Assembly: GCF_003574295.1 (NCBI RefSeq)
Contig: NZ_BHGK01000001.1
Span: 1,550,001 to 1,614,000 of the forward strand
Source: Mediterraneibacter butyricigenes
Lineage (GTDB): Bacteria; Bacillota; Clostridia; Lachnospirales; Lachnospiraceae
Reading direction: 5' to 3'
DNA length: 64,000 bases
The notes under the pieces were generated by a model that saw only the letters and a program-made list of their open reading frames with translations, was not told where the DNA came from and did no database searches. This document shows, piece by piece, positions 7,383 to 34,408 of the stretch (positions within the stretch are counted from its first letter, which is position 1; each line of letters opens with the position of its first letter). The position numbers and the translations under genes are program-made.

Positions 7383-9831
7383 TCCAAATCCACCTCACTT
7401 TTTATCGGCGGTCTGGTATCAAAGGCATGGAGCAGTTCTACAAAGACAGGGTGTATCTGTACCACGCCGACACGCCCGTATAAATCCTGCATTAAGCATT
7501 GTCCGTTCTCCAAATCCCTCAACCGTTTCTGGTTGTTTTCGTCCTCACTGTCCAGTCCGAAAAACTCTAAGGTCTGTTTGATTTCATTAGTATCTGTGGA
7601 GCGGAACGCAAACTTTAAACCGATGTTATTTTTCAGGCTTTCTTTCGATACGTCCCCAGAGGATTGTGTCACGAAATAAACTCCGGCGTTCATGGCTCTA
7701 CCAGCACGCACCAGCTTGTTTGAGAGTGTTTCTCCTTGTGCCACATTTAAGAACGCCCATGCTTCGTCCAAGTCCACGATTTTAAAATGCTTCGGTCACT
7801 GTGAATGAAGTCAAGGGCAAAGGTACTGATAACAATTAAGATGGATACCGACAACAGTTCAATGGTCGTGTATTCCTCAAAGGTGGTATCCTTATCCGGC
7901 AGAACCAAATCTGCGACCTGTATAATGTTGAGCTGGTTATCCAGACTGATTGCATTTTCCACCGAACCGTCCGAGAACAAAAGCTGTGCAAAATCATAGT
8001 CCGTAAAACTTTCGATATGGTCTGCAATGTTACGGGATACGGCGGTATCCTCTTTTCGCAGTTCCTCAATGACCTGCAACAGCCCGTGGTTTGTGTTCTG
8101 GGATACCGTGCGGACAGCTTTTCTAAGGACAGGGAACTTTTCGCCGTCCCTTGAAGAAATTCCTGTAAGGAATGTAAGAATGTCGATGGCAAGACTTTCA
8201 GCGTCCTTGACATCTTTCATAATCACATACGGGTCTAACAGCCCTTGATTGCTGGAATCACTGGTAATGTTTACAATGTTGATTTCTTCTGCAATCTCCG
8301 ACAGAGTTTCTTTCCAGTTCCCACGCTCACTTTTCGGGTCTAGGATAACCGCCTGTCCACCGAACAGGACGGAATAATATACCAGCAGGTTATTGCAGAA
8401 TGATTTTCCACCACCAAGCGAACCCACAAAGGCAGAAGCCAACGCATTTGTGACCGTACCTTTTACCCCTTGACTGGCAAGGGACGGTTGCAGGTAGACA
8501 TTTCTTCCCGTATCCACGGAATATCCGATATAGATTCCTGTATTTTCGCCCAACATCTGAGTAGCACCGAAACCAAGTCCGGCTAAAAAGTCGGATTTCA
8601 CATACTGGATATAATCATTGATATAACGTTTGCTGGCTGGAAGAAACTCTCCATGCAGTCCCATCATATCTCCGGCAGGACGTACCAGCTTCACGTTCAA
8701 ATCATCGTAAAAGTCCTTGACTTCATCACAACGGCGTTTCAGTTCGTCAAGATCGGGTGCAGACACCCGTATGACGTAACTTAACTTGTACATACTTTCC
8801 TTGCTCTGGTCTAAATCTGTTTCCAGTTCATCGACACTGTCTAAGGCTTCCACCACATTTGAACTTGTTTCATTTCCGGCTTGATAGGCGTGATTGTCCA
8901 AGTCCTTTAATTCCTTTTTCTTATTACGGACAGTGGTTAAGGCTTTCTTATTTCCGACAATCTCAACATTCATGGACGTATCCACAGGGAATGTGAACTG
9001 CTGTTGCTGGAAATAAAAGATTTCCGATGATGGGAAGTCCAGCTCCCCGACAATGGCATTGACCGTAAAGTAGGATACATAGCTTTCGCTGTCCTCATGT
9101 TCCAGACGCAAATATCGCTGGCTTTCTTCCACCACACAACGGGTAGGACGGATAAGGTCATAATACTTAATCAGAGTTTCTCTTTTTAATTTTCTTTTGG
9201 GTAGAGGATACACATAATCTTCATAGGCTATCCCGTCCCTGCCGTAGAGGTGTTCCATCAGATACGCAAAGTCTTTGGCTTCCAGTCGGCGGATTTTGAA
9301 CCTACGGGAGATTTTATTTTCCAGCAGTTTTTCCATCTTCACATAACGGTTGATTTCATCATTGCTCATGGAAACAAAGTCATTCATCAGCGTGTGCCTT
9401 ACCTCATTCAAAAACTCACGGAATGTCAGAAATACCGATTTTTTGATGTTCTTCAGATTGACTTCGTCCTCTGTGACCATGAGCTTGAATCCCAGAAAGA
9501 AACGGTAATCCACTTGATTATCACCTATCATGGATACAAGGGCTTCGGTCTGTTCGTCTATCTTTTGATAGGCGATTTCCTTTAATTTTCCTGTTACCAG
9601 CTTCTTTGACTGTTCCTGTATGCTTCGGATTGAACTTTCGGTTGCAATCTGCAACGCATGAATCTTTCCCTCACGGGACTGTGCTATAAGCTGACGGAAG
9701 CTGTCATGCACAAGGTATTTCTGCTCTGGGGATAAGAATGAATAATTGTACGGTATCAGCTCATAGTAGGCGAACACCTCATTGTCGTTATTCCAGACAA
9801 GGTTATTGTCGATATATTTAATCGGGAACAT
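7379..9831 (-). pseudogene. VirB4-like conjugation ATPase (Tn916 Orf16), frameshifted
   Basis: Two overlapping reading frames together give about 817 residues, the normal length of Tn916 Orf16. The first (9831 down to 7747) holds the N-terminal domain and Walker A (GSLGGGKS). The second (7777 down to 7379) begins with the Walker B segment (VDLDEAWAFL) and ends the ATPase domain. The frame changes at the run ATTTTAAAATCG; restoring one A would rejoin them. Without the shift the product lacks Walker B and would be inactive. Either the gene is damaged, the base is a homopolymer error, or translation slips at this site. The C-terminal frame overlaps Orf15 by 4 bases. Confidence 0.85.
7780..7786 (-). 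other. Slippery heptamer T TTA AAA at the VirB4 frame break
   Basis: On the minus strand, in phase with the upstream frame, the bases read T TTA AAA. This is the X XXY YYZ form used for -1 ribosomal slippage, and a -1 shift here leads directly into the Walker B frame. Whether it works in vivo is unknown; a simple one-base deletion in an A run is the simpler explanation. Confidence 0.45.
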
Positions 9832-21204: not shown

Positions 21205-21245
21205 CTCCTAAGCGCTAGCTGTGGGTTCGATTCCCGCAGGGGACG
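21205..21245 (+). other. att core plus 3' half of tRNA-Arg(CCT)
   Basis: CTCCTAAG (21205-21212) equals the anticodon loop of tRNA-Arg(CCT). The bases that follow complete a 3' tRNA half: anticodon stem GCGCT, T-arm GTGGG-TTCGATT-CCCGC, acceptor strand AGGGGAC. The sequence to the left is ICE DNA without a D-arm, so this is a junction formed by integration in the anticodon loop. No CCA is encoded. Confidence 0.7.
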
Positions 21246-21252
21246 GTTACTA

Positions 21253-21303
21253 AAAAAGCGGTAATGATTAGCAGAAAATGCTATATCATGAGCCGCTTTT
21301 TTT
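21253..21303 (+). terminator. Terminator after the tRNA half
   Basis: AAAAAGCGG and CCGCTTTTTTT form the outer stem, with ATGAT/ATCAT inside, followed by a long T run. The position directly after a tRNA 3' end fits the original terminator of the tRNA. Confidence 0.65.
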
Positions 21304-21346
21304 CTTTTCGATGAGATAAGAAAAGGCAGGCAGGGAATGAATTTCC

Positions 21347-21567
21347 AGCTAATTTGAAGTAATTTTCGTTAGCTGGCAGCTAATCAAAAATGCTGTTTTG
21401 CAAACGGGAAAAAATGGACTTCCTGCTAACATCGGGGTTCGTTCCTGTTGAAACCTCAGATCGGGGATGTAAAACAGGGTAAAACGGAGAAAAATCCTTT
21501 GCTGAAAGGAACTTCTGCAAACATCTATTAGCTGAAACAATAGAATATTTCATTAGCTGTAGCTAAT
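21347..21567. repeat. AGCTAAT/ATTAGCT repeat region
   Basis: At least six copies of AGCTAA or its inverse TTAGCT occur in about 220 bases (near 21347, 21369, 21378, 21528, 21553, 21561), plus GCTAAC at 21425. No gene is visible in 21304-21662. The same motif family recurs at the left end of the second ICE (33878-34037). Integrase arm sites or partition iterons are possible. Confidence 0.55.
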
Positions 21568-21662
21568 GGCAAACGGGATGCTCGTTTGGATCAGATTCAA
21601 ATATAAGAATCTAATCTGAACGGGCATTTTTTAGTTTGGATTACAGGAAAAGGAGGAGTTCA

Positions 21663-22979
21663 ATGGCAGGAAAAGAAAACGAATCAAACAGGCTGTTTGA
21701 GGATGAGAAAGTCATAGAAATTGAGATTGAAAGACTCAGATCATTTAAAGGCCATCCTTTTAAAGTGAATGACGATAAGGAAATGCATCTCCTGAAGGAC
21801 AGCATAAAACAGTACGGTGTATTGAATCCGTTGATCGTAAGGCCGGTACCAGATGGTGCATACGAAATCATTTCTGGTCACAGAAGAAAATATGCGGCAT
21901 AGCAACTTGGATATCGGAAAGTGCCTGTGATCATTCGAGTTATGAACGATGAGGAAGCCATTATAAAAATGGTGGATGCTAATCTTCAAAGGGAACGGAT
22001 CAGTTACAGTGAGAAAGCTTTTGCTTACAAAATGAAAAATGATGCTATGAAAGGGACTGCTGGAAGACCGCGTAGCCAAATCGACCACAATTTAAAAGGA
22101 AAGAGAACAGTGGAAATTATCGCAGAAGAAACAGGTGAAAGTCCAAAGCAGGTGCAAAGATATATTACTCTTACGAACCTGATTCCAGAGCTTTTACAGC
22201 AGTTAGACGATGAACTGATTTCCTTCAATCCGGCAGTTGAACTGGCAGCATTAAACGAAAAGGAACAAAAACAGCTAATCGAAGCCATGGATTATGCTCA
22301 GTCAGTGCCCTCTCTTTCTCAGGCACAGCGAATAAAAAAATTGAGCAAAGATGGAAAGCTGACCTTAGAAAAGATGCAGGAAATTCTCAGTGAAATAAAA
22401 AAAGGAGAAATAACAAGAGTCACATTTACAAATATTGGAAATTATATTGATTTTGGAGCCATGACTCAGGTTGACAGTGATATTTTTTTAGAATTATTTT
22501 CAAAAGTCCAGATAAGTGAATCGGACGAAATCACGTATCAGTCTTTTTTAGATCAATGTTCGAAGGCAGAGACTTTTTTACTGCTGGCAGATAATTGCGG
22601 AGAGATTGTATTAGATAAACTGCTGGTAGAACAACTGAAGGAAAGATTTCCTGAATTAAAAGTAGCAGTTATGGTGCGAGGCGGCGAAGTTCTGAATGAT
22701 GCGACAAAAGAAGATGCTATTTATGTAGGAATGGATCAGGTTGCAGAAGTCGTTTCCAATGGAAAACCGGTACCGGGAACGGTGTATGAATTGCTTTCTG
22801 AAGAAGCAAAGGAATTGCTGGACCATGCGGATGTGATTTTGTCAAAGGGTCAGGGGAATTATGAATCCTTATCCAATCAGGGAAGACATATTTTCTTTAC
22901 CTTCTTATGTAAATGTGATCAATTTACAGAGCGATTTGGGGTTCCGGAACTGACCGGAATGTTTGTGGAAGAATGTTGA
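21663..22979 (+). pseudogene. Chimera: ICE-type ParB remnant fused to DUF89/ARMT1 remnant
   Basis: The first part is a ParB/Noc-type protein (EIEIERLRSFKGHPFKVNDD, IISGHRRKYAA, and the HTH part SPKQVQRYITLTNLIPELLQ), homologous to the complete ParB at 36022. It is interrupted by TAG at 21900-21902 where homologues continue. After about 22430 the same frame becomes the C-terminal domain of a DUF89/ARMT1-type metal-dependent phosphatase (GNYIDFGAMTQV, LLLADNCGEIVLDKLL, GGEVLNDATKEDA, ILSKGQGNYESL). GGAGGAG precedes the ATG. The junction shows that a deletion joined an ICE remnant to a chromosomal gene. A 352-residue product could still start after the stop. Confidence 0.85.
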
Positions 22980-23007
22980 TTTTTCTTTATAAAATCCACA
23001 AAGGATA

Positions 23008-23036
23008 TTGACAATATCACAAAAAAGTTGTAAAAT
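23008..23036 (+). promoter_or_regulatory. Promoter of the glp operon
   Basis: TTGACA, a 17-base spacer and TAAAAT form a near-consensus sigma-A promoter. The predicted start near 23043 gives a leader of about 118 bases before glpP, containing the antiterminator hairpin. Confidence 0.75.
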
Positions 23037-23083
23037 ACAACATGTAGAGACGTTTCAAATTCATATTGGGCAGAGAAGATGAA

Positions 23084-23123
23084 GCCACATAATACGTACT
23101 AGAGGTATTTTGTGGCTTTTTTT
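23084..23123 (+). terminator. Leader terminator, probable GlpP antitermination target
   Basis: GCCACATAATAC pairs with GTATTTTGTGGC (11 of 12) and is followed by seven T residues, inside the glpP leader. GlpP proteins bind leader mRNA in the presence of glycerol-3-phosphate and prevent termination at such hairpins, so the operon is probably self-controlled. Confidence 0.75.
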
Positions 23124-23160
23124 GTACCATTTTTTAAATCGATTTAAAGGGAGTAACACT

Positions 23161-23730
23161 ATGATCACAACAGCAATACGGAAAAAATTTATGGAATATC
23201 CGGTGATTGCGGCGGTACGGACACTGGACGACTTTGAGGCTGCATTTCACTCTAAAGTAAAGATTATCTTTATGGTTGGAGGAGATGTATTTAAATGCAG
23301 AAAGAAAATCCAGGAAGCAAAAGAACAGGGAATGGTTGTCTTTTTCCATATGGATCTGGTAGAAGGAATCGGAAAAGATGCAAGCGGAATACATTTTGCA
23401 AAAGAAACTCTGGGGATTTCAGGAGTTCAGTCGACCAGAGTACATATTTTAAAGCTGGCGAAGCAGGAAAAACTGGTGACGGTGCATAGACTGTTTGTCA
23501 CAGACTTTCAGGCACTGCAAAGTGGATTAAAACTTGTTCATACGTCTAATCCTGATTTTGTGGAACTTACTCCGGGGATTTTACATCCCATTGTGAAAAA
23601 AGTAAGCAAAGAAATTCCATATCCGGTGATTTCCAGCGGCTTAATTGCAGGAAAAGATGAAGTGGAAAAACTGTTGAAAGAAGGAGCATCCAACATTGTT
23701 TGCAGTGATCAGAAATTATGGTCTTTCTAA
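23161..23730 (+). CDS. glpP: Glycerol-3-phosphate-responsive antiterminator
   Basis: A 189-residue TIM-barrel-like RNA-binding regulator. Family marks include FMVGGDVFKCRKKIQEAKEQ, FFHMDLVEGIGKDASGIHFA, VHRLFVTDFQALQSG and the final VISSGLIAGKDEVEKLL. It senses glycerol-3-phosphate and allows read-through of leader terminators. It is the first gene of its own operon, 37 bases after the hairpin, and lies 15 bases before the dehydrogenase gene. Start chosen at ATG after AAGGGAG. Confidence 0.92.
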   Translation: MITTAIRKKFMEYPVIAAVRTLDDFEAAFHSKVKIIFMVGGDVFKCRKKIQEAKEQGMVVFFHMDLVEGIGKDASGIHFAKETLGISGVQSTRVHILKLAKQEKLVTVHRLFVTDFQALQSGLKLVHTSNPDFVELTPGILHPIVKKVSKEIPYPVISSGLIAGKDEVEKLLKEGASNIVCSDQKLWSF

Positions 23731-23745
23731 GAAAGGAGCAAAAAA

Positions 23746-25233
23746 ATGATGAATATATTACCGCCTCCGATATTTAAATATGATGTTGCAGATATGGAAG
23801 GGTTGGAAAAAAAGATTTCCAGATGGTCTGACAGAAAAAAATTGCCTGAAATGGAACTGAAACAGGTGTTATGCGGACAGAATGCGATTTATATGCTGCC
23901 GGATGCTCTGCGCTTTCTTGGCGTGACACAGGAACAGGAAATATTGGTTATCATGGATGAGGTGGAAATGGTACGTGGAGACCAAAAAGTGAAACCACTG
24001 GTCAAGGATATTTTGACAGAAAGCGGTTATCAGTGGAAAGAGATTGTCTTAAAAGGAGATAAGAACGGACAGGTTCATCCTGATTTTGAGACGATTGAAC
24101 AGATTCTTCCTCATCTTCATGAAAATTGCGCCATTGTGTCAGTAGGATCCGGTGTTGTAACTGATTTGTCGAAACATTCCAGTTTTTTGTGGTATGAAGA
24201 GCATAAAGAAGCAGGACAGATTCCACTCATTGCCTGTATGACAGCAGATTCTGTTCCGGCTTATTCTTCCCGTTCTTCTATTATTTCCAAAGACGGTGTA
24301 AAAAGAACCTGGCCTTCCAGACTTCCTCATATCATTATTATGGATTATAAAATCTTAAGAGACTGTCCGAAAGAATATAACATTGCAGGTGCGGGAGACT
24401 TATTCCCTCTGTTTTGCTCTTTTACTGACTGGTATCTGGCAGACACCCTAGGCCTTGCAAATTTCCTGGATGGTTCCTGGAGAATTCTGGATGATGCCAG
24501 AGACTTATTAATTCCTTATGCCGGTGAAATTGCAAAGGGAGAGTTAGACGGAATTGAAGTATTGAGTAAATGTCTGACTCTTTGTGGACTTTCTATGACA
24601 TTTGCAAGGGATTCGGTTCCGGTATCCGGTTATGAACATGTGATGAGTCATATGCTGGATATGAGTGCGGCAGCCAATGGAAGAGCAACCGGTTTGCATG
24701 GAGAACAGGTAGGAGTCAGCATTTTATGGTCATTGGCACAGATTGAAATGTTAACCGATTATCTGGATCAGAATTATGATTCGATTTCCCTGGATGGATG
24801 TTATCCGGAAGAAGAGAAAATGCATCAGCATATTATGGAAGTTTTCCATGATGTGGACGAAACAGATGCAATGGGTGCCGAGTGCTGGCATGATTACCAA
24901 CAAAAACTCCATGGCTGGGAAAATGCAAGAAGTAAGATGGAAGAATTTCTGAAAAACTGGAAAGAATACAGAAATACTTTCCGGACACTGCTTCCATATA
25001 CAGTAAAAGACTGCGCAAAAGCATTATCTTTGTTTGGACATCCACTGATGCCAACAGAAATGAAAGTGCCGATTGAAGAAAAGAGAATGCGCTGGGCGCT
25101 TCGAAATGCCCGACTCATGAGAAAACGATTTACAACAGCTGATTTAGTTGGATTTTTGGGCTTATATGATCAGGCATGGGAAGATCAGGTGGTGGCCAAA
25201 GTAATGGCAGCAATTGAAGAGGTTCGAAATTAA
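23746..25233 (+). CDS. sn-glycerol-1-phosphate dehydrogenase-like protein
   Basis: A 495-residue member of the iron-type alcohol dehydrogenase superfamily, closest in pattern to AraM/EgsA glycerol-1-phosphate dehydrogenases, which reduce DHAP to glycerol-1-phosphate. Seen motifs are the nucleotide-binding IVSVGSGVVTDLSKH, MTADSVPAYSSRSS, AGAGDLFPLFCSFTDW, and metal-site histidines in SGYEHVMSHMLDM and GLHGEQVGV. It is about 90 residues longer than typical EgsA, the excess being at the C terminus. It is the second gene of the GlpP-controlled operon. The exact substrate is inferred. Confidence 0.8.
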   Translation: MMNILPPPIFKYDVADMEGLEKKISRWSDRKKLPEMELKQVLCGQNAIYMLPDALRFLGVTQEQEILVIMDEVEMVRGDQKVKPLVKDILTESGYQWKEIVLKGDKNGQVHPDFETIEQILPHLHENCAIVSVGSGVVTDLSKHSSFLWYEEHKEAGQIPLIACMTADSVPAYSSRSSIISKDGVKRTWPSRLPHIIIMDYKILRDCPKEYNIAGAGDLFPLFCSFTDWYLADTLGLANFLDGSWRILDDARDLLIPYAGEIAKGELDGIEVLSKCLTLCGLSMTFARDSVPVSGYEHVMSHMLDMSAAANGRATGLHGEQVGVSILWSLAQIEMLTDYLDQNYDSISLDGCYPEEEKMHQHIMEVFHDVDETDAMGAECWHDYQQKLHGWENARSKMEEFLKNWKEYRNTFRTLLPYTVKDCAKALSLFGHPLMPTEMKVPIEEKRMRWALRNARLMRKRFTTADLVGFLGLYDQAWEDQVVAKVMAAIEEVRN

Positions 25234-25274
25234 TCTGTGCAGAAAAATATCATTGGAAAGGAAGAAAAAGGACG

Positions 25275-26684
25275 ATGAATGAAAGATGGACGGAGTTTAT
25301 AGAAGAAGTAACAAAAGTCTGTAAGGGAACCGATATTTTAACAAGCCCGGAAGACTGTTTGATCTATTCCCATGGTTGTTATCCACGAGAATATAAATGG
25401 CTTTTGCAGGGAAAATATCCTTACATATCCAAGGCAGTTCTTGTGCCGGAAAATGAACAGGAGATTAGCGAAATTGTACAACTGGCAAGAAAAAATCAGA
25501 TTCATATCATTCCTTATGGAGGTGGCAGCGGAATCGTAGGCGGCTCTATCCCATATAATGGGGAGATTATTATTGATGTAAAAAGATTGAAAGACTTTTC
25601 CATCAATGTTGTGAATGGAACAGCAAGAGGCGGTGCCGGCCTTACCGGAGCAGAGTTTGAAAATCTGTTAAATGAACATGGTTATACCTGCGGACAGTAT
25701 CCTCAGTCTTTCCAGAGTGCTACTTTGGGCGGTATGACAGTAACCAGAGCAATCGGAACATTTTCTACAAAATACGGAAAAATGGATGATATGGTAACAG
25801 GAATGTCAGTGGTCTTACCGGATGGACAAATCTATCAATCCCATGCGGCGCCAAAGCGCTCTACCGGTCCGGAACTGAATCAGATTTTCCTCGGAAGCGA
25901 AGGTGTGTATGGTGTGATCACCAGTGTAGAAATGAAGATTTACCCAATTGCTGAAACAAGAATTTTCCAGGCCTATACTTTCCCATCTACCCACGATGGA
26001 TTAAATGCAATCCGAAGCTTTATGCATAAAGGGTTAAGACCTGCAGTGGTACGACTTTACGATGAAGTAGAAGCAACCCATAAAATTGCCCAGTATGGTT
26101 TTGAAAAAGGATTCACTCTTTTAATCCTTGTGTTTGAAGGATGCAAAGAGATGACAGAGTTAGAAGCAAAATTGACCAAAGAAATCTGTCTGGCCAATTA
26201 CGGAAGAGATAAAGGGGAAAAATCAGCGGTAGAATGGCTGGAAAGCCGTTTCTCTACGAAAAAAATGCTGGATTATGATGCCATCAAAGGCGGAACAGCA
26301 GATGCCATTGAAGTGGCAGCTCCATGGGATTGTATTGAAACCGTCTGGAGAGAGATGAGAAAAGCATTAGAGCCTCTTTGTGAAGTAGTAGACTGCCATT
26401 TCTCCCATGTTTATCATAATGGCGCAAGTGTTTATGTAATTTTCCATGCAAAAACAAATGGCGATGACAAAGATGGAGAACAAAGATATTTAGATTGTCT
26501 GGATCTTGCCATCCGTACCAGTTTGAAATATGGCGGAAATGTATCCCATCATCATGGTGTTGGAACAGCAAAAGCAGAATACTTAAAAGAAGAACATGGA
26601 GAAGCAGGCGTTTATGTGATGAAGGCATTAAAGGACAGCCTGGATCCTGATGGAATCATAAATAAAGGAGTGCTTGGATTATGA
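25275..26684 (+). CDS. FAD-linked oxidase, alkyl-DHAP-synthase-like
   Basis: A 469-residue flavoprotein of the VAO/PCMH type. The FAD-binding half contains IIPYGGGSGIVGGSIPY, GATLGG-like SATLGGMTVTRAIG and KYGKMDDMVTGMSVVLPDG. The later STGPELNQIFLGSEGVYGVI strongly recalls alkylglycerone-phosphate synthase and D-lactate/glycolate oxidases. Histidines VSHHHGVGTAKAEY near residue 430 are the conserved active-site type. With a G1P dehydrogenase and kinase beside it, a three-carbon phosphate substrate is likely. It overlaps the next gene by 4 bases (ATGA). Confidence 0.8.
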   Translation: MNERWTEFIEEVTKVCKGTDILTSPEDCLIYSHGCYPREYKWLLQGKYPYISKAVLVPENEQEISEIVQLARKNQIHIIPYGGGSGIVGGSIPYNGEIIIDVKRLKDFSINVVNGTARGGAGLTGAEFENLLNEHGYTCGQYPQSFQSATLGGMTVTRAIGTFSTKYGKMDDMVTGMSVVLPDGQIYQSHAAPKRSTGPELNQIFLGSEGVYGVITSVEMKIYPIAETRIFQAYTFPSTHDGLNAIRSFMHKGLRPAVVRLYDEVEATHKIAQYGFEKGFTLLILVFEGCKEMTELEAKLTKEICLANYGRDKGEKSAVEWLESRFSTKKMLDYDAIKGGTADAIEVAAPWDCIETVWREMRKALEPLCEVVDCHFSHVYHNGASVYVIFHAKTNGDDKDGEQRYLDCLDLAIRTSLKYGGNVSHHHGVGTAKAEYLKEEHGEAGVYVMKALKDSLDPDGIINKGVLGL

Positions 26685-27814
26685 GAAAATTATCGTTTGA
26701 AACCCCGGATATCATGGATATTTTAAATCATCAGGTGATTCATATGGATCAGGCTGTGACCTATTGTCCGGAGTATCTGGTTACCGGAAAGATGAGAAAT
26801 TACCCGTCCAGAACGGCTCAGATTATCAGGGCAGTTTATCTTGGAGAGTTGGAAGATAGTAAAGAAAATGCAGATCTGGCTTTTGCACCGATTTTATCCG
26901 GCCAGGGAGAGCGGTGGCAGAATTTTGGAGAAAAACCGGAAGGATATTTGTTAAGTGTCATCCTTGGAAGAGAGATGTTTTTAAAGAAAGGATATCACAC
27001 CCAGGACGCTGAAGCGTTAAAAGAAAAAGTAGAAAAAAACGATGGACATTATTTAAACTGCTCCAAAGAGGAAGAGGAAGAATGGAAAAAAGTGCTTCCG
27101 TTATCCAAAAACATCCGGACAGGTTTATTGCTGGATGAAGCAACTTTTGTCTATGCAGCAAAAGAAAAAGAAAAGCTGGGTGCATTTTTACAGAAAAAGA
27201 ATATCTGTGTATCAGAAGAAATCGGACCATATTTTACCGGCTTTGATTATCTGGCAGCAGGACTTGTAGAGGAAGGAATTAAAGTAGTAAAAGATTTAAT
27301 TGCAGAATGGGAAAAACAAGGATTTCATCAAATGATTACTTTAACAGGACAAAGTCAGTACCTGTTTACCGAAATGCTTTCCTATCTGGATCTTCAGACA
27401 GACATCGAATTTATTTCCATTCTGGATCTTGCAGATGATTTTCGAATTCAGAATGATTATGTATATGGAGGAAGTTTTTATACCAGATATGCCAAAAAGG
27501 CGGTAAAACTGAATCAATTATCAAAGGCAGAAAAAGAAACACCGATTTTAAACTGCCCGGAATTTTTACCACAGGTAGAAGGGGAGAAAAGAAAGAATGT
27601 AGTTGGAATCTGGACACCGCCGTTATGTGCAGAATATGAAGCAGTGATGACAGAGCCAGAATTCCAAAAGGCTATCTATGAAAGAAGTCTGGCAGAAATC
27701 AAAAAAACACATTTTAAAAAGCTAGTAGTATGTGATCCATATGCATATCATATGCTGTTGAAAAATGGCTATGGCAAAGAAAATGTTGCGTATTATTTCA
27801 GCGTAATGAATTAA
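26681..27814 (+). CDS. Hypothetical partner of the FAD-linked oxidase, possibly CCG-domain-derived
   Basis: A 377-residue soluble protein translationally coupled to the flavoprotein. I do not recognise it firmly. Its repeats, such as GFDYLAAGLVEEGIKVVKDL followed by LTGQSQYLFTEMLSYLD, and the later AEIKKTHFKKLVVCDPYAY, have the rhythm of the CCG domains in GlcF/GlpC/HdrB subunits that accept electrons from such oxidases. However, the paired cysteines that bind the cluster are missing. It may be a cluster-less derivative acting as a structural or substrate-channelling subunit. This is inference. Confidence 0.45.
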   Translation: MRKLSFETPDIMDILNHQVIHMDQAVTYCPEYLVTGKMRNYPSRTAQIIRAVYLGELEDSKENADLAFAPILSGQGERWQNFGEKPEGYLLSVILGREMFLKKGYHTQDAEALKEKVEKNDGHYLNCSKEEEEEWKKVLPLSKNIRTGLLLDEATFVYAAKEKEKLGAFLQKKNICVSEEIGPYFTGFDYLAAGLVEEGIKVVKDLIAEWEKQGFHQMITLTGQSQYLFTEMLSYLDLQTDIEFISILDLADDFRIQNDYVYGGSFYTRYAKKAVKLNQLSKAEKETPILNCPEFLPQVEGEKRKNVVGIWTPPLCAEYEAVMTEPEFQKAIYERSLAEIKKTHFKKLVVCDPYAYHMLLKNGYGKENVAYYFSVMN

Positions 27815-27921
27815 ATGGGAGAATGTAATACGGATAACCTGTTGCCAAGTATGCATCAAGCCTGAAACAGCAGGTGGGGGATACTCATAGCAGATAAAAT
27901 AATAAAAAAGGAGAAGTAATT

Positions 27922-29469
27922 ATGAGTAAGTATGTATGTGGCATCGACATTGGAACAACAGGCGTAAAGGTAATGATTTTTGATATGGACGGAACTGCAA
28001 TTTCCAGTACTTATTCCGAGTATCCATGTACTTTCCCACAGACAGGCTGGGTTGAACAGGATGGAAATATGACCTGGCAGCGCACCTGTGAAACAAGTAA
28101 AAAAGCAATTGAAAAATCAGGTCTGGATCCAAAAGAAATCGTAGCAATCGGTCTTTCTACTCAGAGATGTACCGTTACTCCAATTGACAAAGATGGAAAT
28201 CCTCTTTGTGATGCAATATCCTGGCAGGATTCCCGTTCTTTCGAAGAAGTGGAAGATATCAAACGTATCGTGGGAGAAGAAAAATTCTATGAAATTACAG
28301 GTTATCCTTTAGGAACCGTATTATCCGTAACAGAGATTATGTGGTGGAAAAAACACAAACCTGAAATTTATGAAAATGCATATCTTTTTGTTCTGGATCA
28401 GGAACGTGTGTTACATAATCTGGGCGTGGAAGGATATTATCAGGATTGGTCCAATGGTTCTTTGTATGGACTGATGGATATCCGCAAATTTGAATGGGAT
28501 GTGGAACTGACAAAACAGCTGGGAATTGACCCGGATAAACTTCCACAACTGGTTCCTTCCGGAAAAGTATTAGGTAAAGTATCCAAAGAAGCGGCTGAGT
28601 TAACCGGTTTCGCAGAAGGAACACTTCTTGTATCCGGTGCCGGAGATCAGCAGTGTGCAGGAATTGGAGCAGGTGCTATTAAAGACGGTGTCATAGAAGT
28701 AACAATGGGTACCGCAGGTGTTACATTAGGTTATATGGGACAGGCAAATCTGGATCCATCTATGAAGATGCCATGTGCAGCTCACGCAATTGCAGGAAAA
28801 TGGGAAAGTGAAGGCCTTCAGAACGCAGCTGGTGCAGCATTCAAATGGTATCGGAATGAATTTGCATTCCCGGAAGCACAAAAGGCAGCAGCAGAAGGAC
28901 TGGATGTATATGATCTGATCGATGAACAGATCGAACAGGTAGAACCTGGATGTAACGGATTGATTTTCCTTCCATATCTGGCAAGTTCTGCAGCACCGAA
29001 CTGGGATGCATTTGCAAGAGGAACCTTTGTTGGATTTAACCTGGGACATGGACGGGCTGACATGGCAAGAGCCATTTTAGAAGGTGTTACTTTTGAAGCA
29101 CGTGAAATTATTGACCGAATGATTTCAAACGGAATGGTTGTAAATGAAATCTGCTTAAGCGGCGGCGGTTCAAAGGGAGCTGTCTGGTGTCAGATTCAGG
29201 CTGATATTTACGGAAAGCCATGTACCTCTCTGGATGTTGAAGAAGCAACCACATTAGGCGCAGCTATTTTAGCAGCTTTAGGCGCAGGACTTTTTGATGA
29301 TGTAGAACAGGCAGTAGATAAAATGCTGAAACGGAAAAAAGTCTATGAACCAAATATGGAAAACCATGCATTATACAATAAGTATTTTGAACTTTATAAA
29401 AAATCCTATCAGGCATTAAGCAGTGCAGGCATTTATGAAGATCTGGTAAAAACAGCATTGAACAAATAA
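27922..29469 (+). CDS. FGGY-family carbohydrate kinase (glycerol/xylulose kinase-like)
   Basis: A 515-residue sugar kinase. The first domain has the phosphate loop GIDIGTTGVKVMIFD, ISWQDSRSFEEVEDIK and GLSTQRCT; the second has LVSGAGDQQCAGIGAGA, VTMGTAGVTLGYM and the ATP-site ICLSGGGSKGAVWCQIQADI. The length is normal for glycerol or xylulose kinases. The catalytic base is presumably the Asp in GAGDQQ. GGAG precedes the ATG, about 100 bases after the partner gene. In this operon a triose or polyol substrate is most likely. Confidence 0.88.
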   Translation: MSKYVCGIDIGTTGVKVMIFDMDGTAISSTYSEYPCTFPQTGWVEQDGNMTWQRTCETSKKAIEKSGLDPKEIVAIGLSTQRCTVTPIDKDGNPLCDAISWQDSRSFEEVEDIKRIVGEEKFYEITGYPLGTVLSVTEIMWWKKHKPEIYENAYLFVLDQERVLHNLGVEGYYQDWSNGSLYGLMDIRKFEWDVELTKQLGIDPDKLPQLVPSGKVLGKVSKEAAELTGFAEGTLLVSGAGDQQCAGIGAGAIKDGVIEVTMGTAGVTLGYMGQANLDPSMKMPCAAHAIAGKWESEGLQNAAGAAFKWYRNEFAFPEAQKAAAEGLDVYDLIDEQIEQVEPGCNGLIFLPYLASSAAPNWDAFARGTFVGFNLGHGRADMARAILEGVTFEAREIIDRMISNGMVVNEICLSGGGSKGAVWCQIQADIYGKPCTSLDVEEATTLGAAILAALGAGLFDDVEQAVDKMLKRKKVYEPNMENHALYNKYFELYKKSYQALSSAGIYEDLVKTALNK

Positions 29470-29490
29470 TTCTATTTGAGGAGGCTCGAT

Positions 29491-30288
29491 ATGAATGAAT
29501 TAAAACAAAGGGTTTTATCCGATGTGAAAATGTTTGTTCTGGATATGGACGGCACATTTTATCTGGGCGATCAGCTGATTGAAGGTTCATTAGAATTTAT
29601 TGATAAGGTAAAAGAGACCGGAAGAGATTTTATCTTTTTTACCAACAATGCGTCCAGAATCGGATCATTTTATAAGACAAAGCTTGCGAAAATGGGAATG
29701 GATTCGGAAAATGTTACCGTTCTTACAGCAGGAGACGTTACCATTGAGTATCTGAAAACCTTCTACCCGGGAAAAAGAGTTTATCTGAACGGGACCCCCC
29801 TGTTAGAACAAAGCTTTTTAGAGGCTGGAATTCAATTGGTTGTGGATGATCCGGATGTGGTGATTCAAAGCTTTGACAAAACATTGACTTATGAAAAACT
29901 GGAAAGAATCTGTAATTATATCAGAAAAGGTGTACCATTTTTAGCGACTCATATGGATACCAATTGTCCGACAGAAGACGGATTTATTCCTGACTGTGGT
30001 GCCATGTGTGATTTAATCATTTCCTCTACAGGTGTGAACCCAAAATTCCTTGGAAAACCTTGTAAGGAAACCTTGGATATGGTGCTGAAAAAGACTGGAT
30101 GCAGTGTAGATGAAATTGCATTTGTCGGTGACCGTATTTATACCGATGTTGCCACTGGTGTAAACAACGGTGCGAAAGGCTTCTTAGTATTGACTGGAGA
30201 AGCCGATATGAAAACAGTGGAAGAATCTGATGTAGTTCCAACCTGCATCTTCGATTCTCTGTATGAGATGTCATCTTATTTGTCATAA
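29491..30288 (+). CDS. HAD-IIA (NagD-type) phosphatase
   Basis: A 265-residue hydrolase of HAD subfamily IIA. Motif I is LDMDGTFYLGD (nucleophile Asp), motif II FFTNNASR, the C2-type cap spans the middle, and motif III/IV is FVGDRIYTDVATGVNNGA. Related enzymes act on glycerol phosphate, phosphoglycolate or p-nitrophenyl phosphate. Being last in the operon after the kinase suggests dephosphorylation of the pathway product or repair of wrong phosphates. ATG at 29491 has GAGGAGG upstream. Confidence 0.88.
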   Translation: MNELKQRVLSDVKMFVLDMDGTFYLGDQLIEGSLEFIDKVKETGRDFIFFTNNASRIGSFYKTKLAKMGMDSENVTVLTAGDVTIEYLKTFYPGKRVYLNGTPLLEQSFLEAGIQLVVDDPDVVIQSFDKTLTYEKLERICNYIRKGVPFLATHMDTNCPTEDGFIPDCGAMCDLIISSTGVNPKFLGKPCKETLDMVLKKTGCSVDEIAFVGDRIYTDVATGVNNGAKGFLVLTGEADMKTVEESDVVPTCIFDSLYEMSSYLS

Positions 30289-30298
30289 ACTTAAAAGG

Positions 30299-30378
30299 AG
30301 CGCCCACATTCATTCGCAAAGGCGCCGGACGGCGCTTTCCCGCTGCAGTGCAGCTAACTTTGCTCATAAAAGGGCGCT
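30299..30378. repeat. Nested palindromic element after the glp operon
   Basis: An outer pair AGCGCCC/GGGCGCT encloses AAAGGCGCC-GGA-CGGCGCTTT-like and GCTGCAGTGCAGC palindromes, giving a three-branched foldable unit of 80 bases. It is GC-rich compared with its surroundings. It could be a REP/MITE-like repeat or an mRNA-stabilising end. Confidence 0.45.
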
Positions 30379-30388
30379 TCACCCATCG

Positions 30389-30443
30389 AAAAACAGAGCC
30401 CCCAGATCTTTAAGCAAGCATAAATCCGGGTGTCTCTGTTTTT
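30389..30443 (+). terminator. Terminator of the glp operon
   Basis: AAAAACAGAG and CTCTGTTTTT form a 10-base perfect stem with an inner CCC/GGG pairing, ending in T residues. It follows the HAD gene by 100 bases and lies before the promoter at 30500; it can work in both directions. Confidence 0.65.
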
Positions 30444-30499
30444 CAATGCGGGAACTGATGGAAAATATTACATAAATGTTACAAATATAATAATAAATG

Positions 30500-30528
30500 T
30501 TTACAAAAATGGGTTCGTGTGTTAAAAT
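30500..30528 (+). promoter_or_regulatory. Promoter of the truncated SH3 gene
   Basis: TTTACA, a 17-base spacer and TAAAAT. The predicted transcript would begin about 60 bases before the AAAGGAGG site and ATG of the SH3-domain gene. Confidence 0.6.
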
Positions 30529-30596
30529 TGGTATTAAGAAATGGGAATATCTATCCAGAAAATGCTTTCTTATGGGATAGCATAAAAGGAGGACAC

Positions 30597-30838
30597 ATGA
30601 AGAAAACAATTACACATTATCTTTTTAATGGTTTCGCTTTAGGATGCCTGATTTTTGGTCTGATTATGACAGTGGAGTCCAAGGATGTGCAGGCGGCAAC
30701 GACAAAATATGTTACAGCGTCAGCTCTGAACATCCGGAAGGCAGCGTCTACCAGCAGTGCAAAAGTGGGAACTTATAGTAAAGGAACCAAAGTGACTAGT
30801 TACGGAACCAGTGGAAGCTGGACCAAAGTGAAATATCG
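30597..30838 (+). pseudogene. Secreted SH3b-domain protein, truncated by an IS
   Basis: The gene starts at ATG after AAAGGAGG and encodes a signal peptide (MKKTITHYLFNGFALGCLIF to VQAAT) followed by the beginning of a bacterial SH3 domain (VTASALNIRKAASTSSAKVG, TYSKGTKVTSYGTSGSWTKV). At about residue 81 the SH3 pattern stops and the frame runs into IS sequence to TAG at 30920. Intact relatives carry more SH3 repeats or a wall hydrolase domain, which are missing here. Promoter and ribosome site remain intact, so a short secreted fragment may still be made. Confidence 0.8.
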
Positions 30839-31440
30839 GGTTATAGGACAAAACGTGTTGATGGCTAATCCCATTCAACAAACGTTTTGTCCTTTTTATG
30901 TAAGTCACTCCAAACAATAGCATCGCCCCAAATAGAAAGCGTTTTCTCTAATCGATGCTTTTCGTTCATCCTTTGATATATAGCGGTAATGCTTTGATCT
31001 GTAGGCATAACTTTTATGATTTCAGACAAGGGAAGTGGCTTCGGAGAGTGCATGTAACACCACCAATAAACAGCTTTTATTCGCCGTTCTATTGATAATC
31101 CCCTATGATTTCTCAACATTTCCCGAAGTCTTGCATTCACCCCTCCTTCTATTCGATTATTCATAGAAGGTGCAGAAAAAGAATGCATCGCCTCATCCAG
31201 ATATGTAAAAAGTGTGTTTTCCCGGATCAGTTTCAAGAGAGATCTTTCTGCCTTCAATAACCTTTCATGGTTTGGGCGTTTGTTCCCATGCTCATCGATT
31301 GTCATTTCATCAAGAAATACCTGATGCCTTTTTATCCATGTCATAAAACGTTCTATCCATCTCCCTGCTTCTTGTTTATTCTCGATTTTTAACAGATTTT
31401 TGGCTAAACTATAAAGTTCCATTCCTGTCTGCGTGTTCGG
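30839..31440 (-). mobile_element. IS1249-like insertion sequence fragment
   Basis: The minus strand encodes the C-terminal part of an IS1249-group (IS256 family) transposase, stop at 30865. Typical text includes MNNRIEGGVNARLREMLRNH with the conserved Glu, then IERRIKAVYWWCYMHSP. The N-terminal half with the first catalytic aspartates is absent, cut near 31440 where the integrase remnant begins. The end carries the inverted pair GGACAAAACG/CGTTTTGTCC (30846-30892), a likely IS end or terminator. The element is inactive. Confidence 0.75.
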
Positions 31441-31840
31441 CCTGGAAGTGGTATAGCGTTTCACCTGGCAAAATACGTGAAAGATACACCTATGATCTCC
31501 CACCGGTTGTTTTCCACAGTCTCAGACACAGCAGTGTTACCTATAAGCTGAAACTGAATGGTGGAGATATCAAGGCAGTTCAGGGCGACTCCGGACATGC
31601 TCAGGTCAGCATGGTTACGGATGTATATTCCCATATCCTGGATGACGACCGGAAGAAAAATGCAGAGCTGTTTGAAGAAGCATTTTATGAGAAAAAAATC
31701 TGGATCCGCAGATGCATCCGAATACAGCACAAAATACGGTAACGGTTCCGGAAGGTGTGGATGCAGAACTGCTTGCAAAGGTCCTTAATAATCCTGAGAT
31801 GGCAGCACTTCTTACGCCACTTGCGAAGACAATGAAGTGA
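31437..31840 (+). pseudogene. C-terminal remnant of a tyrosine recombinase (integrase)
   Basis: Only the catalytic end of an ICE or phage integrase remains. It shows the H-x-x-R box (PPVVFHSLRHSSVTYKLKLN), GDSGHAQVSMVTDVYSHI with the second His and the nucleophile Tyr, and, after a one-base loss in an A run near 31690, the ending GVDAELLAKVLNNPEM to stop TGA. The start is cut off by the IS fragment. It is a relic of an earlier element at this locus and in the same orientation as the plus-strand scars. Confidence 0.8.
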
Positions 31841-31924
31841 AAAATAGTGAAAAAATAGTGTAATTTTAGTGAAAAAATGGGTTTCGTTAAAAGGAATGTT
31901 AAAAATATATCTCCATCATGCTAA

Positions 31925-31953
31925 TTGATATCACCGTCATTTGATGGTAAAAT
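31925..31953 (+). promoter_or_regulatory. Promoter upstream of fic
   Basis: TTGATA, a 17-base spacer and TAAAAT, about 34 bases before the Fic start codon. Confidence 0.6.
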
Positions 31954-31986
31954 GATGAAGATAATATTAAAATGAAGGAGATTTCG

Positions 31987-33033
31987 ATGAGAAGTTTTGA
32001 TTATATAAAAACTCCGGAGCAATTTCTAAAACCTGAAATTGTTCAGATGGTCGGAAGCATTCATGAGCATAAAGGTAAGCAGGAATTGTTCCTTGAAGCC
32101 AATATAGACGAATTGAAAACTCTGCTGGAAGTTGCTTTGATTCAAAGTACAGGGGCTTCTAACAGGATTGAAGGTATTTATACTACCGACAAACGTTTGG
32201 AAGAATTAGTAAGACAGAAAGCCGAACCGCGTAACCGGTCTGAACAGGAAATATCCGGATACCGGGAAGTTCTTACCACTATCCATGAAAGTTATGAGTA
32301 TATTAATCCGAGACCAAATATTATTTTACAATTGCATCGGGATTTATACTCATATTCCGGAAGAAATGCTGGTGGAAATTATAAAAATTCGGATAATGTA
32401 ATTGCAGAAACAGATGCAGAAGGTCATCAGAAAGCGCGTTTTATCCCGGTGCCGGCATTTCAGACTCCAGAAGCTATGAATGAACTTTGTACAAATTTTC
32501 TGGAAGCATGGGATGCAGATCGAATAGATAAGTTGATTCTTATCCCTATGTTTATTCTTGACTTTCTGTGTATTCATCCATTTAATGATGGAAATGGACG
32601 AATGAGCCGCCTGTTAACACTTCTTTTGTTTTATAAAGCCGGTTATATTGTCGGAAAGTATGTCAGTATTGAAATGCTGATTGAAAAGACAAAAGAAACT
32701 TATTATGAGGCATTACAGGAAAGTTCCAATGGATGGCACGAGAATGAAAACAGATATGAGTCATTTGTAAAATATTATCTGGGAATTATTCTGAAAGCAT
32801 ACAGTGAGTTTGAGGGGCGTGTAGAGCACCTGAAAAACAGAAGCCTTTCAAAGCCGGATCGTATAAAGACAGTGATTGATAATAAGGTAGGAAAAATTAC
32901 CAAAAAAGAAATCATGGAGTTATGTCCGGATATAAGCAAGGTAACTGTAGAAAGGACCCTGACGGAACTGGTTAAAAGTGGATATATCGCAAAAGTAGGT
33001 GCCGGACCGGCAACTGGATATGTTCGTATTTAA
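31987..33033 (+). CDS. Fic-domain protein (class II, self-inhibited AMP transferase)
   Basis: A 348-residue Fic/DOC family enzyme, likely to transfer AMP from ATP to protein hydroxyls. The N-terminal inhibitory helix shows STGASNRIEG, matching the S/T-x-x-x-E-G/N pattern whose Glu blocks ATP. The catalytic loop is HPFNDGNGRMSR, complete with His and the phosphate-binding residues. A C-terminal winged-helix domain (TKKEIMELCPDISKVTVERT) probably binds DNA or targets. ATG at 31987 is used because the upstream ATG lies inside the AAGGAG site. No separate antitoxin is visible. Confidence 0.9.
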   Translation: MRSFDYIKTPEQFLKPEIVQMVGSIHEHKGKQELFLEANIDELKTLLEVALIQSTGASNRIEGIYTTDKRLEELVRQKAEPRNRSEQEISGYREVLTTIHESYEYINPRPNIILQLHRDLYSYSGRNAGGNYKNSDNVIAETDAEGHQKARFIPVPAFQTPEAMNELCTNFLEAWDADRIDKLILIPMFILDFLCIHPFNDGNGRMSRLLTLLLFYKAGYIVGKYVSIEMLIEKTKETYYEALQESSNGWHENENRYESFVKYYLGIILKAYSEFEGRVEHLKNRSLSKPDRIKTVIDNKVGKITKKEIMELCPDISKVTVERTLTELVKSGYIAKVGAGPATGYVRI

Positions 33034-33503
33034 ATCGGCTGTCGTGGTCGAAATACCATAGACAAATCAACAACAACGTTGTATAGTAATAATAGAAATC
33101 TGGTCAATTGAATATTGTTTATCATTCCCGCTTGTAAGGGGATGGTAGCCGGTATATGATATCTGTCAGTAACAACAGAGCTTTCCCCGGATGTTAGCAG
33201 CTGCAAAGAATCTGCTAATTTTCAGGTCTTATCTGGTCTTGACAGAAAGGGTATTCAGATTACTAGAATTTGATTCGAAAATAAAAAAAGTCCTTGATAA
33301 TAAAAGGCTAAACATATCAGTTCTTGACAGGGATTGACAGAACCACAGAGCTCTCCTAAGAGAAAGCCGAGGCATTCCCCAAAGGGAAAAAATGAAAAAC
33401 AACTTTCAGTTCGAATCTATTCTGAAAAATGCTAATGGTGACAACAAAGCATTCCCCAAATTGGGGAACGTTCTAATGTTACCAAATCAAAAAAATCTGT
33501 AGA
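33034..33503. other. Non-coding stretch with an att-like core
   Basis: No gene is supported here. It contains CTCCTAAG at 33353-33360 within CCACAGAGCTCTCCTAAGAG, closely resembling the ICE-side junction at 21195-21212 (CCACAGGGAACTCCTAAGCG). CATTCCCCAAA is repeated at about 33373 and 33451. I read it as an old element end left beside the tRNA. Confidence 0.45.
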
Positions 33504-33532
33504 TTGACAACTCGAAAAAGAGTTGATAATCT
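33504..33532 (+). promoter_or_regulatory. tRNA-Arg promoter
   Basis: TTGACA, a 17-base spacer containing the inverted repeat CAACTC/GAGTTG, then TAATCT. It lies about 60 bases before the tRNA 5' half at 33592 and is probably the original promoter of the target tRNA gene. Confidence 0.6.
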
Positions 33533-33559
33533 TATATATGGCCGAAGGGAAAATCCTAG

Positions 33560-33582
33560 AAACCCAGTAAAATCAAGGGTTT
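33560..33582 (+). repeat. 23-base direct repeat, copy 1
   Basis: Identical to 33798-33820. Each copy is itself an inverted repeat (AAACCC at one end, GGGTTT at the other). The two copies bracket both tRNA pieces, so the 215-base interval is a duplicated tRNA-plus-terminator block. Confidence 0.75.
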
Positions 33583-33591
33583 GCGGCATGT

Positions 33592-33631
33592 GTCGTCATA
33601 GCTCAGCTGGATAGAGCACTCGCCTCCTAAG
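33592..33631 (+). pseudogene. 5' half of tRNA-Arg(CCT)
   Basis: Acceptor strand GTCGTCA, T-A, D-arm GCTC-AGCTGGATA-GAGC and anticodon stem CTCGC with loop CTCCTAA are perfectly normal. After the anticodon loop the expected GCGAG strand is replaced by GGGTC and no T-arm follows. The gene was therefore cut in the anticodon loop by an integrated element. Confidence 0.75.
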
Positions 33632-33638
33632 GGTCAGG

Positions 33639-33692
33639 TGGAGCAATCCCCTTTCGGAAGCGATTTATGAAATAAATTTGAAAATTGCTCCA
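33639..33692. repeat. Inverted repeat in the segment between att cores
   Basis: TGGAGCAAT (33639-33647) and ATTGCTCCA (33684-33692) are perfect 9-base inverted copies, in the 107-base piece between the cores at 33624 and 33739. It may be an integrase arm site or part of a deleted element. Confidence 0.5.
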
Positions 33693-33706
33693 TTACAATT
33701 AAATAC

Positions 33707-33783
33707 GTCTCAGTACCTCAGTAGGATAGAGGGGTCGCCTCCTAAGCGGTAGGTCGGGTGTTCGAATCACCTCGGGAACGCCA
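33707..33783 (+). tRNA. tRNA-Arg(CCT), hybrid or ICE-restored copy
   Basis: A complete 77-base cloverleaf including encoded CCA: D-arm CCTC/GAGG, anticodon stem GTCGC/GCGGT with loop CTCCTAA (anticodon CCT), T-arm GGGTG-TTCGAAT-CACCT. The acceptor stem GTCTCAG against CGGGAAC has two mismatches. I infer that the 5' half was supplied by an element end and the 3' half by the second ICE, restoring a tRNA-like gene. Whether it is charged is unknown. Confidence 0.65.
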
Positions 33784-33790
33784 AAAACTC

Positions 33791-33832
33791 CGCCGGAAAA
33801 CCCAGTAAAATCAAGGGTTTCCGGCGTTTTTT
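33791..33832 (+). terminator. Terminator after the tRNA, with direct-repeat copy 2
   Basis: CGCCGGAAAACCC pairs with GGGTTTCCGGCG around an 11-base loop and is followed by six T residues. It includes the second copy of the 23-base repeat (33798-33820). Confidence 0.75.
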
Positions 33833-33877
33833 CATTTTTACGGAAAAAGTGAAAAATCGTAAAATTCACAGATTTTC

Positions 33878-34037
33878 ATTAGCAAAATCTCCGTCAGCTA
33901 ATGGAAATTAGGACGAATGTCGTCCGCCTTTCAGGTGAACGACTTGCTAATAAAAATTAGCAGGATTTTCGCTATTTTGCTAATGAAAATGCCCTCTCTG
34001 CTAATGGCAGAAAAATTCGAGCAAAATTCCTGCTAAT
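33878..34037. repeat. TTAGC/GCTAA repeat region at the left end of the second ICE
   Basis: Seven or more copies of GCTAAT or ATTAGC (near 33879, 33897, 33946, 33956, 33979, 34000, 34032), one pair arranged as GCTAAT-AAAA-ATTAGC. The interval 33833-34140 has no gene. The same motif is clustered beside the ParB remnant at 21347-21567, which supports common descent of the two element ends. Confidence 0.6.
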
Positions 34038-34153
34038 GAATAAGGCGTTCGTTACCCTGTTAATTCGTTCATTTAGGGGTGGTCAAGCGACAATCGCACA
34101 CTACTTCTATGCCATTTCTTATTATATAATTGCGGTAACAGGAGGTGGTTGTT

Positions 34154-34333
34154 TTGAAAGAACAAAAATATCATTTATACCTTTCCAAGGACGAATACAG
34201 CGAAGTGCTGCAATCACTTATCCGTTTGAAGAACAGCCTGATAGCACAAGGCAGATACACGGACGCAGCAGATGATATTATTTGCAAGGTGCTTTCAGCC
34301 AAGAAAAGAAAGTTCAAAATCAAATATATCTGA
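34154..34333 (+). CDS. Small ICE protein related to the one at 58325
   Basis: A 59-residue protein with probable TTG start after AGGAGG. The pattern YHLYLSKDEYSEVLQSL, then GRYTDAADDIICKVL and KKRKFKI, is shared with the protein at 58325-58528 (STDAVDDLIIKVG, KKKFKV). Both look like small two-helix regulators or toxin/antitoxin-like proteins, but the function is unknown. It is the first gene of the second ICE and ends before a bidirectional terminator. Confidence 0.65.
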   Translation: MKEQKYHLYLSKDEYSEVLQSLIRLKNSLIAQGRYTDAADDIICKVLSAKKRKFKIKYI

Positions 34334-34341
34334 ACACGAAT

Positions 34342-34373
34342 AAAGACCGCCTACACTTTTGTAAGCGGTCTTT
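34342..34373. terminator. Bidirectional terminator
   Basis: AAAGACCGC and GCGGTCTTT form a perfect 9-base stem with a 14-base loop, between convergent genes ending at 34333 (+) and 34409 (-). Confidence 0.75.
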
Positions 34374-34408
34374 GCTAATTTAGAGTAAGTTAGACAAACT
34401 GGAATTTA

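Follow-up and report, generated by a model that had tools for sequence, protein, structure and literature searches.

Does a reading frame that passes from a parB gene straight into a DUF89/ARMT1-like gene encode a fusion protein, or is it what remains of two broken genes? The question is raised by positions 21663-22979 of a 64,000-nucleotide stretch of the Mediterraneibacter butyricigenes genome (contig NZ_BHGK01000001.1, here C1, positions 1,550,001 to 1,614,000 of the forward strand). This whole stretch is referred to below as the window, and coordinates are relative to it unless a contig is named. The original prediction took the frame for the product of a deletion that began within an ICE and ended in a host gene, and suggested that a 352-residue protein might still be made from an internal start. 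We arrive at a different account, to which we assign a probability of about 0.9: the fused frame is a two-gene pseudogene scar within a decayed ICE remnant at 21205-33353, hereafter module B, which belongs to a tandem array at tRNA-Arg(CCT).

Results

The fused frame and its join

Translation of 21663-22979 yields a ParB sequence with a single TAG at 21900-21902, after which the frame stays open to a stop codon ending at 22979. A ParB_N Pfam match (1.5e-12) falls within the first 79 residues, before the TAG; a sub-threshold HTH_ParB match lies downstream of it; and the remainder matches ARMT1-like_dom (PF01937, 1.3e-37, 130 bits against a curated cut-off of 25), covering profile positions 107-306 of 311 only. 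Translation and Pfam matches thus bear out the predicted unbroken passage from ParB into DUF89 and the amber codon at 21900, and the predicted 352-residue open frame is indeed present, opening at GTG 21921 in the same frame as the fusion. The join, which had been placed close by at about 22430, lies exactly at 22432/22433: homology to the intact parB1 genes of three other Lachnospiraceae genomes (G179, G341, and G418) stops at 22433, where homology to the intact DUF89 gene of the MAG Lachnospiraceae SUG225 starts at 99%. It connects parB1 codon 257 to DUF89 codon 100. As only one base is common to both sides, the junction is illegitimate, and since any such join retains the frame with a chance of one in three, a clean frame alone is not evidence of function.

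The parB1 part is 93-94% identical to the three intact genes, which extend for 34 codons beyond its end and are followed by parA and parB2. An intact ParB-type partition protein has an uninterrupted ParB_N region, an HTH, and a C-terminal part; here, the TAG falls inside the ParB_N region and the last 34 residues are gone. Relative to the G179 gene, the remnant carries 38 synonymous and 6 nonsynonymous changes (dN/dS 0.035), which indicates that the gene was constrained for nearly all of its divergence and that most of this divergence is older than the inactivation. Directly upstream of parB1, two of the relatives have ~165 bp extra (G179:C25:28393-28557 and G341:C13:4167-4331), a stretch that the window does not contain.

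The best relative of the DUF89 part is found on SUG225 contig JALEPU010000076.1, where the whole gene encodes a 280-residue protein that, unlike the window frame, includes the N-terminal CxxC-bearing part and has no ParB attached. The remnant is 99.1% identical to it over exactly 22433-22979, down to the stop codon, with five differing bases (3 nonsynonymous, 2 synonymous) and consequently only 3 differing positions among the last 181 residues. The pattern fits a recent loss of constraint, although this is suggestive only, five changes being too few for a test. The prediction that the N-terminal half had been lost does not hold, because comparison with the intact homologue shows the first 99 of 280 codons to be gone and about two thirds to be kept. 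The remnant retains the putatively catalytic ADNCGEIV, NDAT, and KGQGN stretches; the absent 99 of 280 residues include the part that carries a CxxC in 107 of 108 homologues, and activity without this N-terminal part is unlikely. The N-terminus is absent elsewhere in the host's own genome, which also has no second PF01937 match, and an inversion or translocation of the missing part was rejected on the first of these grounds. Solved relatives in PF01937, the family of DUF89/ARMT1-like damage-control phosphatases, are 2FFJ and 2G8L.

Table 1. Features of the fused frame, module B, and the surrounding tandem array.
Feature	Position	Strand	Remarks
First ICE, 24.5 kb	-3344 to 21205		integrase adjoining first tRNA
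Module B	21205 to 33353		
att core CTCCTAAG with tRNA-Arg(CCT) 3' half, closing the upstream ICE and opening module B	21205..21250	+	core positions
parB1 remnant	21663..22432	+	strong native ribosome-binding site; without the last 34 codons of intact relatives
In-frame TAG, preceded by 79 parB codons	21900..21902	+	sense codon in 5/5 intact relatives compared
Illegitimate junction parB1/DUF89	22432..22433	.	~1 bp common sequence
DUF89/ARMT1-like gene remnant	22433..22979	+	last 181/280 codons
Glycerol-phosphate-type gene cluster, 7.3 kb	22980..30301	+	stands between two pieces 20 bp apart in MAG SUG225
5' part of 447-aa gene locus, truncated, 543 bp	30302..30844	+	98% identical to SUG225
IS-like remnant	30845..31489	-	short inverted repeat AGGACAAAACGT...ACGTTTTGTCCT, truncated transposase-like ORF
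ICE tyrosine integrase C-terminal remnant, truncated and frameshifted	31490..31841	+	
Fic-domain gene	31972..33033	+	right-end gene of intact ICE
att core, right end of module B	33353..33360	+	
Two short spacers, 271 and 115 bp	33353-33739		each ending in tRNA-Arg 5' half
Third element	33739 to 82227		
Fourth element	82227 onward		

Search for the same join in other genomes

Looking for the same junction in other genomes, as the original prediction had proposed, produced no second case and no conserved, stop-free ParB-DUF89 family. Searching 397 family genomes with the DUF89 part returned DUF89 relatives, none of them joined to parB. A scan of ~85,000 species genomes gave no second join, an IMG/VR search gave nothing, and a plasmid search gave no match covering 80% of the query; in all three, entries from the genome that contains the window may be absent. 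A fused ParB occurs at none of 117 other DUF89 loci examined, and the one place among them where a ParB is near DUF89 (two records, L067 and L103) has an ordinary chromosomal parB ~6 kb off. Judged by its sequence, the parB1-DUF89 join is recent, non-homologous, and unique so far, with no conserved fusion family behind it.

Module B has the two ends of an ICE that is intact in G179

Module B measures 12.1 kb and has the att core CTCCTAAG at each side. An intact ICE of 68.7 kb is found at tRNA-Arg(CCT) in G179, which belongs to a different Lachnospiraceae genus, between cores at 27967 and 96714 of contig C25. Window 21205-22433 matches its left end at 94-96% identity, the similarity ending exactly at 22433, and window 31490-33360 matches its right end at 97.5%, starting at 31490. 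As both match one G179 contig, module B comprises the two ends of this 68.7-kb ICE but lacks ~65.5 kb of its interior, with 9.06 kb of other DNA found there instead. In the intact ICE, a left end like that of module B (96% identity) completes the tRNA-Arg. The ICEs of G179 and its close relatives G341 and G418 have left ends 92-96% and right ends 95-98% identical to those of module B and the same gene order, att-parB1 and int-Fic-att, whereas the G179 ICE, unlike module B, has parA, parB2, transfer genes, and intact parB1 and int between its ends. No DUF89 match is among those listed for the G179 genome. We also considered 22433-33500 as host DNA flanking a second ICE, and rejected this because of the ICE right end at 31490-33360.

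The DNA between the ends

The interior begins with the DUF89 remnant and the 7.3-kb cluster, whose genes encode a GlpP antiterminator, an Fe-ADH-type dehydrogenase, an FAD oxidase, an FGGY kinase, and a HAD phosphatase. The 495-aa Fe-ADH-like dehydrogenase is unusual, its best other match (32%, in 200 family genomes) being a second copy in its own genome. A glycerol-phosphate cluster alongside DUF89 is absent in nine wider relative loci examined. Beyond the cluster lies part of the 447-aa gene locus that follows DUF89 in SUG225, with 20 bp between the two. The IS-like remnant, so named by inspection and without a Pfam match, adjoins the truncated integrase. At least two more junctions are present between 22979 and 31490.

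SUG225 matches the DUF89 and 447-aa pieces at 98-99% identity, and a 280-bp SUG225 stretch ending in the 5' half of its tRNA-Arg is 97% identical to window 33353-33631, whereas alignable core DNA in the SUG225 housekeeping region upstream of its tRNA-Arg is only ~65-73% identical to the host. From this disparity, the DUF89 DNA appears foreign to the host. In addition, over 101 bp counted from the core in its tRNA-Arg, SUG225 shows no difference from the left end of the array's fourth element. Two separate SUG225 contigs agree on the origin, and the simplest reading would be a movement of DNA between the SUG225 lineage and the host lineage; as SUG225 is a MAG, mis-binned contigs would weaken this statement about the donor while leaving the junction untouched. 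We rejected the idea that a donor fragment had circularised and reopened at the tRNA, because the att core at 33353 stands between module B and the SUG225 tRNA spacer.

The tandem array at tRNA-Arg(CCT)

The sequence CTCCTAAG is the anticodon region of tRNA-Arg(CCT). It occurs four times in the window (21205, 33353, 33624, and 33739), compared with 1.26 expected in shuffles, and outside it at -3459, -3344, and 82227. Complete tRNA-Arg genes are present in two places, one at C1:1546624-1546700 and the other within the window at 33707-33783. This tRNA thus has a tandem row of at least four att-delimited elements, from -3459 to beyond 82227 (C1:1546542-1632227 and on), and, with insertion in the anticodon loop, each element supplies its own tRNA 3' half. 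The 271-bp spacer is 97% identical to the SUG225 tRNA flank, and the 115-bp spacer is a near-duplicate of the host's own spacer at C1:1546542-1546657; these likenesses suggest that tRNA-flanking spacers may travel together with ICEs. Window 33739-34405, in the element next to module B, has the same left end as the DNA after the G179 ICE (G179:C25:96714-97379, 90% identity), which may mean that the elements are passed on together in this order. In the first ICE, the VirB4-like gene (7379-9831) consists of two overlapping frames split near 7750, and this ICE may therefore also be decaying, unless the split is a sequencing error.

Discussion

Three other accounts of the fused frame deserve consideration. 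The first, a working ParB-DUF89 chimera made from the 352-codon frame through an internal start codon or TAG readthrough, draws on the length of the open frame and on the survival of the HTH part of ParB and of the DNCGE, ND, and KGQGN stretches of DUF89. Translation signals speak against it: a strong ribosome-binding site, AAAAGGAGGAG, precedes the parB1 start (ATG 21663), but the internal starts have no SD-like motif save one weak AGGA before GTG 22110. Use of the parB1 start, if it occurs at all, would give a 79-residue ParB_N stub, and translation most likely does not extend to the DUF89 part. The proposed product from an internal start accordingly lacks support, and a 352-residue protein is unlikely to be made at all. 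Considering also that the TAG breaks the ParB_N domain, that the DUF89 part that usually bears the CxxC has been lost, and that no second such join turned up in the collections searched, we regard a working chimera as very improbable.

A single deletion from inside the ICE into a neighbouring host gene, which would have left the fusion at the edge of the ICE, agrees with the sharp illegitimate join and with the absence of the DUF89 N-terminus from the genome. What this account leaves unexplained is the sequence beyond the DUF89 piece, where a matching ICE right end and att core follow after at least two further junctions; that right end still carries a truncated integrase, a Fic gene, and an att core, so the DUF89 fragment has the element on both sides of it. 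Moreover, the DUF89 DNA nearly matches that of SUG225, a distant genome that differs from the host by ~30% in alignable core DNA. ICE DNA was thus indeed lost, as predicted, with an illegitimate join, but the gene joined to parB1 is foreign and is itself bounded by the att sites of the element, and a deletion into a host gene is very improbable. It is likewise highly unlikely that the join is an assembly chimera absent from the cell. Assemblers fail in regions such as this array, which is rich in att repeats and in ICEs that resemble one another, but the join itself lies in unique sequence with no repeat and 1 bp shared, no repeated att core comes within 1 kb of it, and the contig spans 2.9 Mb in a 7-contig assembly.

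The pseudogene scar in a decayed ICE remnant therefore remains our preferred reading. An illegitimate join would have linked the two codons noted above, the frame being kept by chance, and the nonsense codon may have arisen before or after that event as the gene lost function. The surrounding element fits a putatively cis-mobilizable ICE remnant in a tandem array, that is, a CIME, an element without integration and transfer genes in which attL and attR are kept (PMC5704250). Indeed, CTCCTAAG occurs at 21205 and 33353, placed as are the ends of the intact G179 ICE; of the integrase (463 aa in G179), ~117 C-terminal codons are left, frameshifted; and none of the ORFs of 22433-33353 is a transfer gene. 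CIMEs in tandem accretion with ICEs, described for ICESt1-related elements of Streptococcus (PMC5704250), likewise keep both att sites, have lost integration and transfer genes, and stand in tandem at one tRNA gene. Module B differs from them in its interior, where 9 kb of other DNA, partly foreign and of chromosomal type, has taken the place of ICE sequence, and in its site, the anticodon loop of a Lachnospiraceae tRNA-Arg(CCT).

Module B might also have served as a transport vehicle. The ICE ends would then have captured the DUF89 gene and its neighbour from another gut bacterium, with the glycerol-phosphate-type cluster, and the att-bounded package would have moved between Lachnospiraceae genera together with that bacterium's tRNA-flanking spacer (33353-33624). 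We consider this extension possible but somewhat doubtful.

Conclusions

The fusion is ordinary in kind and brings no new biology on ParB or DUF89 proteins. It does serve as a warning: where a single genome seems to encode an in-frame "fusion protein", the frame can consist of two dead gene fragments joined by chance. The biology that remains is predicted to reside in the att sites, through which the integrase of a neighbouring ICE could excise module B or move it in cis. The locus provides a base-resolved case of the decay of an ICE to an att-bounded remnant that would hold the DNA of another bacterium.
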